This document shows positions 4,790 through 61,851 of a stretch of 64,000 nt of DNA, piece by piece. Origin of the DNA: Gammaproteobacteria bacterium (lineage in GTDB: Bacteria > Pseudomonadota > Gammaproteobacteria > JAABTG01); NCBI GenBank assembly GCA_034522055.1, contig JAXHLS010000002.1, positions 3,615,549 through 3,679,548 of the forward strand, given 5' to 3'. Within the stretch, counting starts at the first letter, position 1. The number at the start of each line of letters is the position of its first letter. Made by a program: the position numbers and the translations under genes. Under the pieces are notes generated by a model, which saw only the letters and a program-made list of their open reading frames with translations, was not told the origin of the DNA and ran no database searches.

Positions 4790-5830
4790 ATGTCGGGATG
4801 AATCCCGACCTACATCCGTGCCCCGGGAAGGGGCGATTGTCTTGTCTTCGTGGCCGGGCTGTCGGGATGAATCCCGACCTACATCCGTGCCGCCGGAACG
4901 AGCGGTGGGGGGTGTTTGTAGGTCGGGCTGTAGGTCGGGCTTCAGCCCGACAGTCCGCCGATGGGGATTCCAACCCGACGTGGGTGCATGGGGCAATGCC
5001 GGATGTCGGGATGAATCCCGACCTACATCCCGATAACGAGGCGAGCTGGTGGGTCCGCTGCGCTTGACCCACCCTACGTTTCTGCGCGCATCGACGTCAT
5101 TGGAAGAGGCGTAGGTCGGCTGCCTTGGCAGCCGACGGAAACTCGGCGGTTTGTGGGCGCGGATGTCGGTTGCCGAGAGCAACCGACCTACAGACTGCTT
5201 GACAGGAAACGGAGTACATACATTCGTGCCGCCGGAACGAGCGGTGGGGGGTGTTTGTAGGTCGGGCTTCAGCCCGACAGTCCGCCGATGGGGATTCCAA
5301 CCCGACGTGGGTGCATGGGGCAATGCCGGATGTCGGGATGAATCCCGACCTACATCCCGATAACGAGGCGAGCTGGTGGGTCCGCTGCGCTTGACCCACC
5401 CTACGTTTCTGCGCGCATCGACGTCATTGGAAGAGGCGTAGGTCGGCTGCTCTTGGCAGCCGACGGAAACTCGGCGGTTTGTGGGCGCGGATGTCGGTTG
5501 CCGAGAGCAACCGACCTACAGACTGCTTGACAGGAAACGGAGTATCTACATTCGTGCCGCTGGAACGAGCGGTGGGGGGGTGTTTGTAGGTCGGGCTTCA
5601 GCCCGACAGCTCGCGGATGGGAATTCCAACCCGGCGTGGGGGCATGGGGCGCGGCCGGATGTCGGGATGAATCCCGACCTACATCCGTGCCCCGGGAAGG
5701 GGCGATTGTCTTGTCTTCGTGGCCGGGCTGTCGGGATGAATCCCGACCTATATTCGTGCCGCTGGAACGAGCGGTGGGGGGGGGTGTTTGTAGGTCGGCT
5801 GCTCCTGGCAGCCGACGGGATCCTGGCGGG
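4790..5830. repeat. Array of REP-like palindromes with ~330-bp tandem duplication
   Basis: A gene-free kilobase built from a few palindromic units. GTCGGGATGAATCCCGAC occurs at 4792, 4861, 5005, 5332, 5661 and 5730. Alternating with it are GTCGGGCTTCAGCCCGAC, GTCGGCTGC(C/T)TTGGCAGCCGAC and GTCGGTTGCCGAGAGCAACCGAC types, plus a GGTGGGTCCGCTGCGC..GACCCACC unit. Nearly all are joined to GTAGGTCGG / CCGACCTACA. Anchors (GTGCCGCYGGAACGAGCGG) recur at 4887, 5226, 5554 and 5756, showing two tandem copies of a ~330-bp composite and a shorter third. This resembles BIME/REP clusters that transcripts can fold into hairpins. Confidence 0.85.
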
Positions 5831-7063: not shown

Positions 7064-8077
7064 TCAGGGGCGCGCGGGTACCCGGCCGTAGCGGGCGGCC
7101 ACCAGCTCCGCGCTGATGGCGAGGGCGATCTCTTCCGGCTGACGTCCCCCCAGGTCGAGGCCCACGGGGCCTTGGATGCGCGCCAGGGCCCCGTCATCGA
7201 AGCCGCGGCGGCGTAGCCGTTCGAGGCGCCCCGCATGGCTGCGTCTACTCCCCAGGGCGCCGATGTAGAAGGCCGGTGAGGCGAGGGCGGCGGCCAGGGC
7301 GGGGTCGTCCAGTTCGGGGTCGTGGGTCAGGCACACCACCGCCGTGCGTTCATCGGGGACGAGGCCGGCGATGCCGGGGCCGGTGGCAACCTGGCGTATC
7401 TCGGCGCCCGGCAGGCGTCGGGGGGCGGCGAAGGCCGGCCGTGGGTCCACCACGGTGACGGCGAAGCCCACCTGGGCGGCCATGGGCACCAGGCTCTGGG
7501 TGATGTGCACGGCTCCCACGATGAGCAGTCGCAACGGTGGCGTCACCACCAGGGCAAAGGCGTCACCGGCGGGTGCGGCCAGCAGGCCACTGTGCCCCGC
7601 GGCCACGGCCGCCGCCAGCGCCGTGTCCTCCCGGGGGGTGAGGTCGAGGGATCCCGTGCCACTATCCCCCCGCACCACGGCCTGGCCCGGGTCCGCCAGG
7701 CGGAATACCAGGGCCGCCGGCGGGCCCCGCAGCAGCTCATCCACCACGGCAGGGTCCTCGAGCACCCGCACATGGACCCGCAGCCGGCCGCCGCAGGCCA
7801 GCCCCGCGGCCCGGGCGGTGTCGTCGCCGATGCCGTAGTCCAGGGTCCGGGGGGCACCGTCCTCCAGCACGTCCAGGGCCTCGCTCACCACCTCCGCCTC
7901 GATGCAGCCCCCCGACACCGAGCCCTCGAAGGCCCCCCGGTGATCCACCACCAGCAGGCTCCCTGCCGGCCGCGGCGACGAGCCCCAGGTCTCGATGACC
8001 ACCGCCACCGCCACCCGTCGCCCGTCCCGGAGCCAGGCCCGGGCGGTGGCGAGTAGGGAGTGGGTGGGATTGGGCAT
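7064..8077 (-). CDS. xdhC: XdhC/CoxI family molybdoenzyme maturation factor
   Basis: 337 aa. The N-terminal XdhC/CoxI domain shows VVIETWGSSPRPAGS and SGGCIEAEVV; the C-terminal Rossmann-like domain starts near residue 185 (LLIVGAVHITQSLVPMA) and ends with ALGSRRSHAGRLERL. XdhC proteins bind and protect Moco, help in sulfuration and hand it to xanthine dehydrogenase or CO dehydrogenase-like enzymes. Convergent with mocA, 29 bp between stops, which supports a shared role. A heptanucleotide repeat region lies directly upstream of its start. Confidence 0.85.
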   Translation of the reverse strand: MPNPTHSLLATARAWLRDGRRVAVAVVIETWGSSPRPAGSLLVVDHRGAFEGSVSGGCIEAEVVSEALDVLEDGAPRTLDYGIGDDTARAAGLACGGRLRVHVRVLEDPAVVDELLRGPPAALVFRLADPGQAVVRGDSGTGSLDLTPREDTALAAAVAAGHSGLLAAPAGDAFALVVTPPLRLLIVGAVHITQSLVPMAAQVGFAVTVVDPRPAFAAPRRLPGAEIRQVATGPGIAGLVPDERTAVVCLTHDPELDDPALAAALASPAFYIGALGSRRSHAGRLERLRRRGFDDGALARIQGPVGLDLGGRQPEEIALAISAELVAARYGRVPARP

Positions 8078-8105
8078 GGGGGAGAGGAGGTGAATGGCGG
8101 AAAGG

Positions 8106-8317
8106 CTGGTGAATAGTGGTAGGGCAGTGAATGGTGAATGGTGGAAAAGCGGTGAATAGTGAATAGTGAATAGTGAATGGTAAAAACAGAATTTGCGGCA
8201 TGGTTTTGAGGCTCTGATCCCTGCGCCTATTTCTTGGAGCCATCAGCCTCGCACGGTGTTATAACTATTCACTATTCACTATTCACCATTCACTATCTTC
8301 CAAACTATTCACCATCT
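8106..8317. repeat. Inverted heptanucleotide repeat arrays (GTGAATA/TGAATGG family)
   Basis: The left array (8106-8185) is made of GTGAATA/GTGAATGG-type heptamers. The right array (8264-8317) is its reverse complement (ATTCACT/ATTCACC). About 80 bp of unique DNA separates them. The right array runs into the 3' end of the hydrolase gene and includes its stop codon. Transcripts across the region could form a long imperfect hairpin, possibly serving as a terminator for one or both flanking genes. A similar architecture with the same heptamer recurs at 61.0-61.3 kb. Confidence 0.8.
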
Positions 8318-9163
8318 TCCAAGTTCCTCCCTCATGAACGCCGCCGCCCGCAGCAGGGCATCGCGGGAGGCCAGGTCGTCGGCGAAGGTGCGTACGTCGG
8401 GGGGGCGGAAGTCGAAGCCGCGGCCGACGCCGGGGTACTCGATGAGGCGCACGTCGCGGCCGCGTTCCTTCATCACCTCCACGCCGGTCTCGATGACGCG
8501 CTTGCGCTGGTACTGCTCGTCCGCGCCCACGAAGATGAGGGTGGGCAGGGTCAGTTCCTCCATCTCGGGGGCGTAGCCGTAGACCTGCAGGGGCTCGGGG
8601 GCGTTGGGGTCCTGGAGGTGGGGATAGTAGGAGACATAGCAGGCGGCGGCATCGTCCTGACGCTTGAAGGTGGTGGCCACCTTGAGGGTGTAGTAGCCGC
8701 CGCGGGTGTGGGAGTAGAGGCAGGCGCGGCGGCTGCTGATGTCGTCCCGCGCCAGCAGGGCGTCCAGGCCCCGGTTCACGTCGGCCTCCAGGGCGTAGTC
8801 GTGGCGGATGGGATGGGTGCCGATGAAGTGGGCGGTATAGACATCGGGGGCCAGCACCACGAAACCCCGGGCGGCCAGGCGCTTCACATGACGGCGCAGC
8901 AGGTCGTCCAGGCCCCGGCGGCCGTGCTGGAACAGCACCGCAGGGTAGCGCTCACCGTCGGCGGGGCGGGCCACCATGGCCGGCACCGCCACGTCTCCGC
9001 TAGTATAGGTCACCTCCGTGGTGACCACCTCGTGATTCGCGGGCACCCGCATCACGCCCTCGTTCCACCAGGCTTCGTCCCACCACCAGGGCCTCTGGTC
9101 GGTCGCGGCGGCGGGGCCGGCCGCCAGCAGGGTGCATATCAAGAGCAGGATGGAGCGGGACAT
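8309..9163 (-). CDS. Secreted dienelactone-hydrolase-like protein, catalytic residues apparently lost
   Basis: 284 aa. A signal peptide (LLLICTLLAAGPAAA then TDQRP) is followed by an alpha/beta-hydrolase domain with YPAVLFQHGRRGLDD. The ATG at 9163 is preferred over an upstream one at 9196 because GAGAAG lies 8 bases before it and the signal peptide starts there. The usual nucleophile position (GxCxGG) reads SHTRGG, and the usual catalytic His-Gly-Phe reads GRGFDF, leaving only the acid (VGADEQY). It is therefore probably non-hydrolytic or uses a different mechanism, for example as a binding protein. The 3' end runs into a heptamer repeat. Confidence 0.75.
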   Translation of the reverse strand: MSRSILLLICTLLAAGPAAATDQRPWWWDEAWWNEGVMRVPANHEVVTTEVTYTSGDVAVPAMVARPADGERYPAVLFQHGRRGLDDLLRRHVKRLAARGFVVLAPDVYTAHFIGTHPIRHDYALEADVNRGLDALLARDDISSRRACLYSHTRGGYYTLKVATTFKRQDDAAACYVSYYPHLQDPNAPEPLQVYGYAPEMEELTLPTLIFVGADEQYQRKRVIETGVEVMKERGRDVRLIEYPGVGRGFDFRPPDVRTFADDLASRDALLRAAAFMREELGRW

Positions 9164-9340
9164 GGCGGCTTCTCGGGGATGGGTGAGCATGAACAATCAT
9201 TAGCACACCCCCGCTCCGGGGCCAAGTCGGCGGCCCGCCGGGCGTTTCCCGGACCGTTTCCCCCCTGGCAGGGCCTTTTTTCACGCCATCCCTTGGGACT
9301 ATGGTGGGGGCTATCCCATCCCCTGGAGACACCGAGAATC

Positions 9341-53564: not shown

Positions 53565-55115
53565 ATGGACATCACGGCGGCGCGGCGACGCGAAAAAAGG
53601 AAACAACGGCCGATATCTGCGGCCCTGGCCCTGCTGGCCCTGCTGGCCCTGCTGGCCCTCCTGGCTCCCCTGAGTGCACCGGCCGCGGAGGGAGCCACGG
53701 CCTATGCCGAGCACTGTGCCTCCTGCCACGGGGCCGAGCGGCTGGGGGGCATGGGGCCGGCGCTGTTGCCGGGGAACCTGAAGCGCCTCAAACGCGACGA
53801 GGCGGCGGCGGTGATCCGCCGGGGCCGGGCGGCCAGCCAGATGCCGGGCTTCGGGGAGATGCTGGACGATGCCCGGGTGGCGGCCCTGGTGGAGTTCATC
53901 TATACGCCCCTGGACTACACCCCCGAGTGGTCGGCGGAGCACATCCGGGCCACCCGGCGTATCATCAATGACGCGTCCGAACTGGTGACCGCGCCGGCCT
54001 ACGGCGCCGATCCCCTGAACCTCTTCGTGGTGGTGGAACTGGGGGACCATCACGCCACTATCCTGGATGGCGATCGCTTCGAGCCCATCCATCGCATGAA
54101 GACCCACTTCGCCCTTCACGGCGGGCCCAAGTTCTCCCCCGACGGGCGCTTCGTCTACTTCGCCTCCCGGGATGGCTGGATCAGCAAGTTCGACCTGTGG
54201 GGCCTGGAGTACGTGGCCGAGGTGCGGGCCGGCATCAACACCCGCAACCTCGCCGTGTCCGGCGACGGCCGGGTGGTGGCGGTGGCCAACTACCTGCCCC
54301 ACACCCTGGTGCTGCTGGATGCCCGGGACCTCTCCCTGCGGGAGGTGATCCCCGTGACGGACGGGGCCGGACGAACCTCCCGGGTGAGCGCCGTCTATGG
54401 CGCCCCGCCCCGGCACAGCTTCGTGGCGGCCCTCAAGGACATCCCCGAGATCTGGGAGTTGCCCGTGGACGGGGACGGAGGGTCCGGCCCCGTGACGCCG
54501 CGACGCATCGTGCTTGACGACTACCTGGACGACTTCTTCTTCACCCCCGACTACCGCCACGTCATGGGGGCGGCGCGCAATGCCCGGAACGGCCAGGTGG
54601 TGGACCTGAAGCGCGGGGTCAAGGTGAGCGATCTGGGGTTGGACGGCCTGCCCCACCTGGGCTCCGGCATCACCTGGACCCTGGACGGGCGGCGGGTGAT
54701 GGCGACGCCCCATCTGCGCAAGGGCGAGGTCACGGTCATCGACACGGCGACCTGGGAGACCGTCGGGACCATCGAGACCCAGGGCCCCGGCTTCTTCATG
54801 CGCAGCCACGAGAACTCGCCCTACGCCTGGGTGGACGTGTTCTTCGGCCCCCACCGCGACGCGGTGCACGTCATCGACAAACAGACCCTGGAGATCGTCG
54901 AGACCCTGCGCCCGGCCCCCGGCAAGACCGCCGCCCACGTGGAGTTCGACCGCGACGGCCGCCACGCCCTCCTCAGCATCTGGGACCCCGCCGGTGCCGT
55001 GGTGGTCTACGACGCCCGCACCCTGGAAGAGGTGAAACGCCTGCCCATGAACAAACCGTCGGGGAAATACAATGTGTATAACAAGATCACGCTGTCGGAG
55101 GGGACTAGTCATTGA
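53565..55115 (+). CDS. nirN: Dihydro-heme d1 dehydrogenase NirN
   Basis: 516 aa. A basic N-terminus and a leader built of repeated LALLALLALL (tandem CTGGCCCTG-type repeats) precede a heme c domain (AEHCASCHGAERLGG) and an eight-bladed d1-binding propeller (FSPDGRFVYFASRDGWISKF, HVEFDRDGRHALLSIWDP, KYNVYNKITLSEGTS). NirN oxidises the last heme d1 precursor and is related to NirS. Last gene of the plus-strand nir operon; ends just before a heptamer repeat array. Confidence 0.92.
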   Translation: MDITAARRREKRKQRPISAALALLALLALLALLAPLSAPAAEGATAYAEHCASCHGAERLGGMGPALLPGNLKRLKRDEAAAVIRRGRAASQMPGFGEMLDDARVAALVEFIYTPLDYTPEWSAEHIRATRRIINDASELVTAPAYGADPLNLFVVVELGDHHATILDGDRFEPIHRMKTHFALHGGPKFSPDGRFVYFASRDGWISKFDLWGLEYVAEVRAGINTRNLAVSGDGRVVAVANYLPHTLVLLDARDLSLREVIPVTDGAGRTSRVSAVYGAPPRHSFVAALKDIPEIWELPVDGDGGSGPVTPRRIVLDDYLDDFFFTPDYRHVMGAARNARNGQVVDLKRGVKVSDLGLDGLPHLGSGITWTLDGRRVMATPHLRKGEVTVIDTATWETVGTIETQGPGFFMRSHENSPYAWVDVFFGPHRDAVHVIDKQTLEIVETLRPAPGKTAAHVEFDRDGRHALLSIWDPAGAVVVYDARTLEEVKRLPMNKPSGKYNVYNKITLSEGTSH

Positions 55116-55133
55116 GGGGGGGATAGCGCATGG

Positions 55134-55290
55134 GGAATAGGGAATAGGGAATAGGGAATAGGGAATAGGGAATAGGGAATAGGGAATAGGGAATAGGGAA
55201 TAGGGAATAGGGAATAGGGAATAGGGAATAGGGAATAGGGAATAGGGAATGGTGAAATGGGAAATGGGAAATGGGAAAAGGGAAATCGGG
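55134..55290. repeat. GGAATAG heptanucleotide array (16 perfect copies plus degenerate tail)
   Basis: GGAATAG is repeated 16 times without error at 55134-55245, then decays into GGAATGG, TGAAATG, GGAAATG (x2), GGAAAAG and GGAAATC up to ~55290. It lies 18 bp after the nirN stop and before the convergent DNR-like gene. Perfect copies indicate recent expansion. The rest of the gap to 55409 is T-rich with no gene. Confidence 0.95.
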
Positions 55291-55409
55291 GATAGCGGAT
55301 GGGGAATAATGAATTGCCTTCTCTTTTTTCGCTTTATTTCGTGTCTTTCGTGGTTACAGCTTTTCGCTGTCTCGCGCCGGCGATATGGCCCCGATGGATG
55401 AATACCGGG

Positions 55410-60954: not shown

Positions 60955-61294
60955 CCAGAAGTGAGTGAATAGACTAGAAGCAAGTGAATGGTGAATAGAC
61001 CAGAAGCAAGTGAATGGTGAATGGTGAATGGTGAATAGCAATAGCAATAGCAATAGCAATAGCAATAGCAAAAGCAAAAGCAAAAGCAAAAGCAAAGGCA
61101 AAGGCAAAAGGCGACGACGGGGGGGTGGCTGAAGGTGGGCGTTTCCGCTTTGGCTTGAGGGATTTGGTGCAAGCTGGCGTGCCTTGATGTTACTGCCCAC
61201 GCCAACCAGGAGCCATACTCGCTGTACCATTCACCATTCACCATTCACCATTCACCATTCACCATTCACCATTCACCATTCACCATTCACCATT
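60955..61294. repeat. Composite repeat region: TGAATGG heptamers, CAATAG hexamers, and inverted ACCATTC array
   Basis: From 60955 degenerate AGAAGCAAGTGAATGGTGAATAGACC units occur twice; TGAATGG/TGAATAG heptamers at 61011-61037; then (CAATAG)n and (CAAAAG)n/(CAAAGG)n hexamers to ~61110. After ~115 bp of unique DNA comes ACCATTC, the reverse complement of GAATGGT, repeated almost ten times at 61226-61294. The inverted pair could fold into a large hairpin. The array stops five bases before the sigma-factor ATG. No gene lies in 60921-61299. Confidence 0.9.
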
Positions 61295-61299
61295 TCCCC

Positions 61300-61851
61300 A
61301 TGCCCGTCCCCACCGACCCCACCGACGAATACCTCATGAGCGCCTACGCGAGCGGTGACGCGGATGCCTTCGACATCCTCTACGGGCGCCACAGGAACGG
61401 CGTGTACCGTTACCTGCTGCGCCAGTGCGGCGGACCGGAGGTGGCGGAGGAGTTGTTCCAGGACGTGTGGATGCGGGTCATCGGCATGCGCCGGCGCTAC
61501 CGGCCCACGGGCTCCTTTCGGAGCTGGCTCTACGGTATCGCGCACAACCGGCTGGTGGACCATTACCGCCAGCAGGAGCGTTCCCGGCTGGTATCCGGCG
61601 ATGGGCCCGAGGACCCCGACCCGCGCCCCGCCATGGACCATCAGGCCTTCATGGCGGACTGTCTTAAGCGCCTCATGGCGTTGCTGGACAAGCTGTCGCC
61701 GCCCCAGCTCCAGGCCTTCCTGCTGCGCCAGGAAGGGGGGCTCGGCCTCGAGGACATGGCCCGCGTCATGGGCGTGGGGGCGGAGACCGCCAAGAGCCGG
61801 CTGCGCCATGCCATGAGCCGGTTGCGCGGGGGGCTGGAGGATTGCCTGTGA
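61300..61851 (+). CDS. ECF-type RNA polymerase sigma factor
   Basis: 183 aa. Sigma-2 region (DADAFDILYGRHRNGVYRYLLR, VAEELFQDVWMRVI, SFRSWLYGIAHNRLVDHYR) and sigma-4 (LSPPQLQAFLLRQEGGLGLEDMARVMGVGAETAKSRLRHAM). The ATG directly follows a heptamer array, leaving no ribosome-binding sequence. The stop overlaps the next gene, its likely anti-sigma factor. It probably controls the vWA lipoprotein locus, but targets are unknown. Confidence 0.88.
   Translation: MPVPTDPTDEYLMSAYASGDADAFDILYGRHRNGVYRYLLRQCGGPEVAEELFQDVWMRVIGMRRRYRPTGSFRSWLYGIAHNRLVDHYRQQERSRLVSGDGPEDPDPRPAMDHQAFMADCLKRLMALLDKLSPPQLQAFLLRQEGGLGLEDMARVMGVGAETAKSRLRHAMSRLRGGLEDCL

Follow-up and report, generated by a model that had tools for sequence, protein, structure and literature searches.

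Inward-facing heptamer arrays in a gammaproteobacterial genome: probable gene-less relatives of a small element encoding a PF05635 four-helix-bundle protein

Miniature inverted-repeat transposable elements (MITEs) and other non-autonomous transposons are short, lie between genes, have inverted ends and carry no gene of their own. Two loci in a 64,000-nucleotide stretch of contig JAXHLS010000002.1 (hereafter the window) from the gammaproteobacterial assembly GCA_034522055.1 resemble MITEs in being short, intergenic, gene-less and bounded by inverted ends; here inward-facing arrays of the heptamer TGAATRG enclose unique spacers at positions 8091-8311 and 60966-61289, and target duplications are seen at some sites of their probable gene-bearing relatives. 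In contrast to MITEs, however, the ends are variable microsatellite arrays and not a fixed terminal repeat, and the interiors are mostly unrelated, the exception being two loci elsewhere in the genome, L045 and L074. The data presented below make it probable that the two pairs are gene-less, non-autonomous copies of a small mobile element, similar to the intervening sequences (IVSs) of 23S rRNA, whose ends are inverted arrays of a 7-bp unit and whose full form carries a gene of the PF05635/TIGR02436 family.

The 23S rRNA IVS of Coxiella, which contains an S23p/IVP gene, is like the proposed full form an insert of ~430 nt with a PF05635-family gene in its loop and terminal inverted repeats that act as a stem, and it is deemed selfish (PMC4990558). 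The stem of the 23S IVS is cut by RNase III; in Coxiella it is 28 bp long, compared with arms of 2-19 heptamers here. Furthermore, the IVS resides in rRNA and has a unique stem, whereas the elements described here lie between protein genes, have a stem of tandem heptamers with a unit peculiar to each element, and are accompanied by abundant gene-less copies. PF05635 proteins occur in 23S rRNA IVSs and have a relative in Avd, a protein of diversity-generating retroelements; their annotations do not go beyond ‘23S rRNA intervening sequence protein’ or ‘four helix bundle protein’, and the literature found assigns them no function. The arrays themselves resemble the GGGAATC and GGGGA(C/T)T heptamers of Xanthomonas and Nostoc (Rehm et al. 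2015, PMC4692102), which are also intergenic, form convergent pairs, have a G-rich strand leading off the nearest gene, lie at near-identical distances from genes and occupy conserved gaps, few of them divergent, in which the arrays vary. TGAATRG, however, is devoid of the GGG tracts that underlie the G-quadruplex explanation offered for those repeats, and Rehm et al. did not invoke an element, a linked gene, empty sites or target duplications, and reported no general association with mobile elements. The TAACTGA repeats of Beggiatoaceae (PMC4679880) are likewise intergenic heptamer arrays that abound close to start codons, in both gammaproteobacteria and cyanobacteria, but they are direct, with a single indirect repeat, and no flanked interior has been described. 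Heptamer repeats and the IVS/PF05635 gene were thus each known separately. Their linkage is new as far as the open-access literature goes, in which no paper connecting the two was found; subscription journals and preprints lie outside this coverage and a prior description is possible.

A PF05635 gene enclosed by heptamer arrays

The genome that contains the window (G000, 5.14 Mb) has only one PF05635 gene, and this gene lies inside a pair of arrays built from TGAATRG and GGGAATA units (L068, G000:C6 ~190 kb). The 433-nt spacer of L068 encodes a four-helix-bundle protein that scores 111.8 bits against TIGR02436 (cut-off 24) and displays weak, remote similarity to Avd. The orthologue in G001, a genome of the same genus available as a fragmented draft whose contigs break at arrays, sits inside a GGGAATA pair. 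Among loci from many phyla, a scan with the bare TGAATGG pattern located PF05635 genes between TGAATGG arms at two rhizobial loci (L081 and L124), while in Oryzomonas (L186) such a gene lies beside TGAATGG arrays.

PF05635 loci were also gathered blind to repeats from three related genomes, viral contigs and plasmids, yielding 33 loci after removal of duplicates, a sample heavily weighted to cyanobacterial plasmids. Tandem Repeats Finder detected a 7-8-bp tandem array no more than 330 bp from one or both ends of all 33 loci; arrays were present at both ends of 28, and in 24 the same unit was inverted. Random 360-bp intervals, by comparison, had arrays on both sides in 0 of 3,888 cases in cyanobacterial plasmids (80 kb sampled), in 17 of 4,000 in the window, none of them inverted, and in 9 of 4,000 in G001 DNA. 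A stricter detector found arrays at one or both ends of 25 of the 33 loci and inverted arrays at nine (random intervals, 0/3,951), and the loose Tandem Repeats Finder counts should be read accordingly. The array unit varies between PF05635 elements, although the strand that reads inward is purine-rich in 19 of the 24 gene-bearing elements, as it is with TGAATRG. A second scan of viral contigs, using a rhizobial PF05635 protein, returned no matches. Elements encoding the four-helix-bundle protein were also observed inside CRISPR-cas operons of cyanobacterial plasmids (L264, L267 and L270), in a cas6/cas4 gap and in a gap between cas10 and a Cmr3-family gene, and at L255 such an element lies between nrdB and nrdA.

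As shown by comparison of cyanobacterial plasmid sequences, the arm-gene-arm block is a mobile unit that inserts between genes, apparently duplicating a few bases of the target, and decays to gene-less or one-armed forms. Empty sites were sought with the flanks of four plasmid elements (flank identity 91-99%). At site A (occupied in L261 and empty in L275, with flanks 98-99% identical) GTAAT is present once in the empty site and twice around the occupied 423-bp block, which begins and ends with arms. Similarly, at site B (L280 versus L279) TTCTA is single when empty and doubled when occupied, while at site C the duplication is only approximate (TAATG/TTATG). The duplications, of ~5 bp, are situated outside the arrays, and the empty sites are without arrays as well as without the gene. 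The 423-bp block of L261, including its arms, recurs between unrelated flanks in L257 (82%) and L280 (78%). At a TraM-adjacent site, one plasmid (L260) carries the gene, a related one (L278) has convergent arms but no gene, and a third (L277) is empty. Another copy, L276, is missing half of the gene and its right arm, which offers a route to single-sided arrays.

The two window pairs and their counterparts in the genus

The initial annotation described a heptamer family on one side of a short spacer and its reverse complement on the other, at two loci, and this arrangement was borne out, with spacers of 84 and 188 nt. Genes were called by codon usage and their starts are approximate. The features of the two pairs, followed by their neighbours, are listed below.

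8091-8180, plus strand: left arm of the 8.1-kb pair; 8 TGAATRG units, ragged towards the gene, with a perfect 4-unit tandem adjoining the spacer
8181-8264, no strand: spacer of the 8.1-kb pair; 84 nt, opens with TAAAAAC, without a notable reading frame
8265-8311, minus strand: right arm of the 8.1-kb pair; 5 units of CYATTCA (TGAATRG on the minus strand)
8154-8227, no strand: inner left arm and half of the spacer; matches G001 in inverted orientation, 84% over 74 nt
60966-61038, plus strand: left arm of the 61-kb pair; 7 TGAATRG units, ragged towards the gene
61039-61226, no strand: spacer of the 61-kb pair; 188 nt, opens with AGCAAT/AGCAAA hexamers
61037-61110: AGCAAT/AGCAAA hexamer array; begins exactly at the end of the heptamer arm
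61227-61289, minus strand: right arm of the 61-kb pair; 9 perfect CCATTCA units, with a start codon 10 bp further on, at 61300
7064-8077, minus strand: gene behind the left arm of the 8.1-kb pair; putative XdhC-like protein, start codon 13 bp off the arm
8309-9190, minus strand: gene behind the right arm of the 8.1-kb pair; putative dienelactone-hydrolase-like protein, 90% identical to the G001 protein at the orthologous gap
55133-55308, plus strand: single-sided GGGAATA array; 25 copies (Tandem Repeats Finder), shortly past a stop codon at 55115

Both pairs sit between protein genes and not in 23S rRNA, and the window returned no rRNA matches. Neither pair contains a PF05635 gene, which is present in one other pair of the same genome, L068. 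Because the unit, the architecture, the position at gene borders and the inward orientation all agree with those of this single gene-bearing copy, we infer that the window pairs are of the same kind and are themselves mobile. The sequence GGAGCCAT, previously put forward as a signal common to the spacers, was rejected as chance sharing of 8-mers; it is found in these two spacers only and in none of 17 others, and one or more common 8-mers turn up in 15.8% of shuffled pairs. The single-sided array at 55.1 kb is followed by ragged GGGAAAT-like units; its GGGAATA unit, which is the one used throughout the sister genome, has a GGG tract, while TGAATRG has none. Palindromes like the repetitive extragenic palindromic (REP) sequences, of the GTAGGTCGGGATGAATCCCGACCTAC type, occupy 4791-4941 of the window, and similar ones are present in many examined loci and in the spacer of L043. 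They do not form arms, however, and identity of the arrays with REP sequences or bacterial interspersed mosaic elements was rejected.

In the sister genome G001, GGGAATN has 115 matches and TGAATRG hardly any, the reverse of the balance in G000. Nevertheless, 18 of 21 examined G001 array loci match array regions of this genome in nucleotide alignments, demonstrating that array positions are common to the two genomes while the unit is different. Spacers are mostly unalignable between G000 and G001. Four align directly (L044, L068, L073 and L225) and two in inverted orientation, the 8.1-kb spacer, with a score of 58 against a maximum of 48 among 1,104 mismatched comparisons, and that of L066 (p ~0.001). 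The whole arm-spacer-arm block is missing from two G001 gaps (L040/L222 and L042/L209), which provide the insertion-free alleles whose existence the initial annotation had proposed as a check, although the window loci themselves were never seen empty. In G002 and G003 the left gene of the 61-kb locus is present beside a different neighbour, and the alleles are uninformative. Within G000, the gene-less loci L045 and L074 agree exactly in a 21-nt core and in the right arm, the interior being 27 nt in one of them. The sister genome also has other heptamer families, GGACCAA, GTCCTTG and GAACCCC (L220 = G001 C248; L240 = G001 C251; L205), and at L240 a PF05635 gene is flanked by arms in the same, and not inverted, orientation.

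Array orientation and competing explanations

Exact 3-unit matches in the whole genome number 118 forward and 90 reverse, compared with 0 for a reversed-pattern control, and correspond to ~70 arrays, the ends of which were mapped with three end patterns (46 regions examined). Neighbouring arrays up to 500 bp apart are convergent in 20 cases and divergent in one, with 10 and 0, respectively, in G001. Among 117 loci from many phyla that contain the bare TGAATGG pattern the corresponding numbers are 19 and 1; 13 of the 19 are rhizobial, some of them mutually related. Whatever the coding direction, 58 of 71 arrays are nearer the gene behind than the gene ahead (median distances over all arrays, 29 and 154 nt, respectively), and array-bearing gaps are seldom divergent (5/53 versus 36/120, p = 0.003). 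Against an expectation of 2.2, 17 of the 72 arm ends carry an AAAAGC-type cap; apart from these caps, REP palindromes and the L045/L074 copy, no conserved spacer core was detected. The units are also polarized. Ragged units favour the gene side (21 versus 8, p = 0.02; flank test, p = 0.0008), and in the mixed arrays of G000 the minority GGGAATA units are gene-proximal in 28 of 33 informative arrays, suggesting that renewal happens at the spacer side; unit polarity in G001 is weak (6 versus 3). The orientation of the arrays, which had been named earlier as a way to check the pairs, supports, together with folding and the insertion-free gaps, the view that these are a defined element or folding structure and not random microsatellites.

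Among the alternatives, the one that survives best, although we regard it as unlikely, is that the arrays are plain heptamer microsatellites produced by slippage at gene borders, with the G-rich strand pointing away from the nearest gene; a pair would then be just two arrays that share a gap, and arrays would be the insertion targets of PF05635 genes. The corresponding distances in Xanthomonas and Nostoc, 28 and 160 nt, are indeed very similar to those reported here, and 70-75 convergent pairs occur per genome (Rehm et al. 2015, PMC4692102). The uniqueness of most spacers, the growth or homogenization of arrays on the spacer side and the many unrelated heptamers of the genus are likewise consistent with such a process. 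Slippage, however, predicts no inward orientation, nor does it account for cyanobacterial empty sites that lack arrays and gene alike, target duplications outside the arrays, arms that move with the gene to unrelated sites, or the lack of any random interval with arrays on both sides in the 80 kb of cyanobacterial plasmid sampled.

A structural or regulatory site, in which the inverted arms fold into an RNA hairpin that serves as terminator or stabilizer (or, for GGGAATA, into a G-quadruplex) and are retained at gene borders by selection, is less plausible still. The inverted ends at both window loci are able to form a stem, and RNA folding, another check named by the initial annotation, was supportive with z ~ -7.4 at each locus, but strong folding is expected of any inverted repeats and thus provides no independent proof. 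While the depletion in divergent gaps also fits a structural role, no terminator-like site was found by consensus at the 8.1-kb locus, no Rfam RNA was matched in the window, and corresponding gaps in the sister species carry a different unit. In addition, the A/G variant of the unit is anticorrelated between the two arms of a pair (17 convergent pairs, L037-L074; rho -0.63, permutation p = 0.987 for similarity), which argues that pairing is not being tightened and perhaps reflects avoidance of perfect palindromes. As the arms within a pair are unlike each other, homogenization between them by hairpin copying was ruled out. The main unit has GG tracts only, and a three-tier G-quadruplex is not required; since the orientation rule also holds for this GG-only unit, a G-quadruplex was dismissed as its cause. 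Highly improbable, finally, is templated end growth, whereby a reverse transcriptase (RT)-like enzyme with an Avd-like four-helix-bundle partner extends the 3′ ends of breaks with heptamers, as at a telomere, and pairs are two healed ends joined by filler, for although the G-rich strand almost always runs 5′-3′ into the spacer, the newest or majority units are on the spacer side, the unit switched genome-wide between sister species and the four-helix-bundle protein has its remote Avd similarity, no RT turned up near any element (no search aimed at RT was made), the recurrence of one block at unrelated sites, bounded by target duplications, resembles ordinary integration, and the G001 polarity is weak.

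Several observations weigh against reading the pairs as copies of a small mobile element. No second arm was detected at five of the 33 PF05635 loci; two have direct arms and two more fail the unit match. The initial annotation had allowed that paired orientation might be coincidental if most arrays proved single-sided with unrelated neighbours, and this was upheld in part; single-sided arrays roughly match pairs in number, amounting to around half of the total, and the gene-less spacers of this genome are mostly unique, yet the single arrays follow the same gene-border rule. Searches of the gene-less spacers for IVP remnants gave none, the only matches being to array-encoded peptide, and together with the uniqueness of the spacers this indicates that gene-less pairs did not arise simply by deletion from a single master copy. 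Target duplications are unreadable at the window loci, L040 and L042, reflecting the divergence of flanks in this genome.

A proposed mechanism and its wider meaning

We propose that the element would insert into intergenic DNA adjoining start or stop codons, where, as seen in the cyanobacterial plasmids, it arrives and leaves as a single arm-gene-arm unit with a duplication of ~5 bp and can lose its gene or one arm; the integrating enzyme would act in trans. In RNA the arms would pair as a long stem which, by analogy with the 23S IVS, RNase III could cut, and such cleavage would make intergenic insertion tolerable. Flipped interiors, as seen at the 8.1-kb spacer, may arise by arm-arm recombination or re-insertion. 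Arms within a genome would evolve in concert, as suggested by TGAATRG here versus GGGAATA at the same sites in the sister species.

A wider proposal, which we advance tentatively and with rather less confidence than the assignment of the window pairs, is that these loci belong to a general class of bacterial mobile elements with ends of inverted heptamer or octamer arrays, a freely changing unit, and an IVP/Avd-family four-helix-bundle gene as the sole gene; the heptamers of Xanthomonas, Nostoc and many phyla would then be footprints of such elements, with units rewritten in concert. The linkage raises the question of how the 7-bp unit comes to change in all the arms of a genome at once, and why its length is almost invariably seven bases. 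If true, it would give the PF05635 family, and the heptamer repeats that follow the same rule and were previously reported without explanation, a testable identity as a minimal mobile element.
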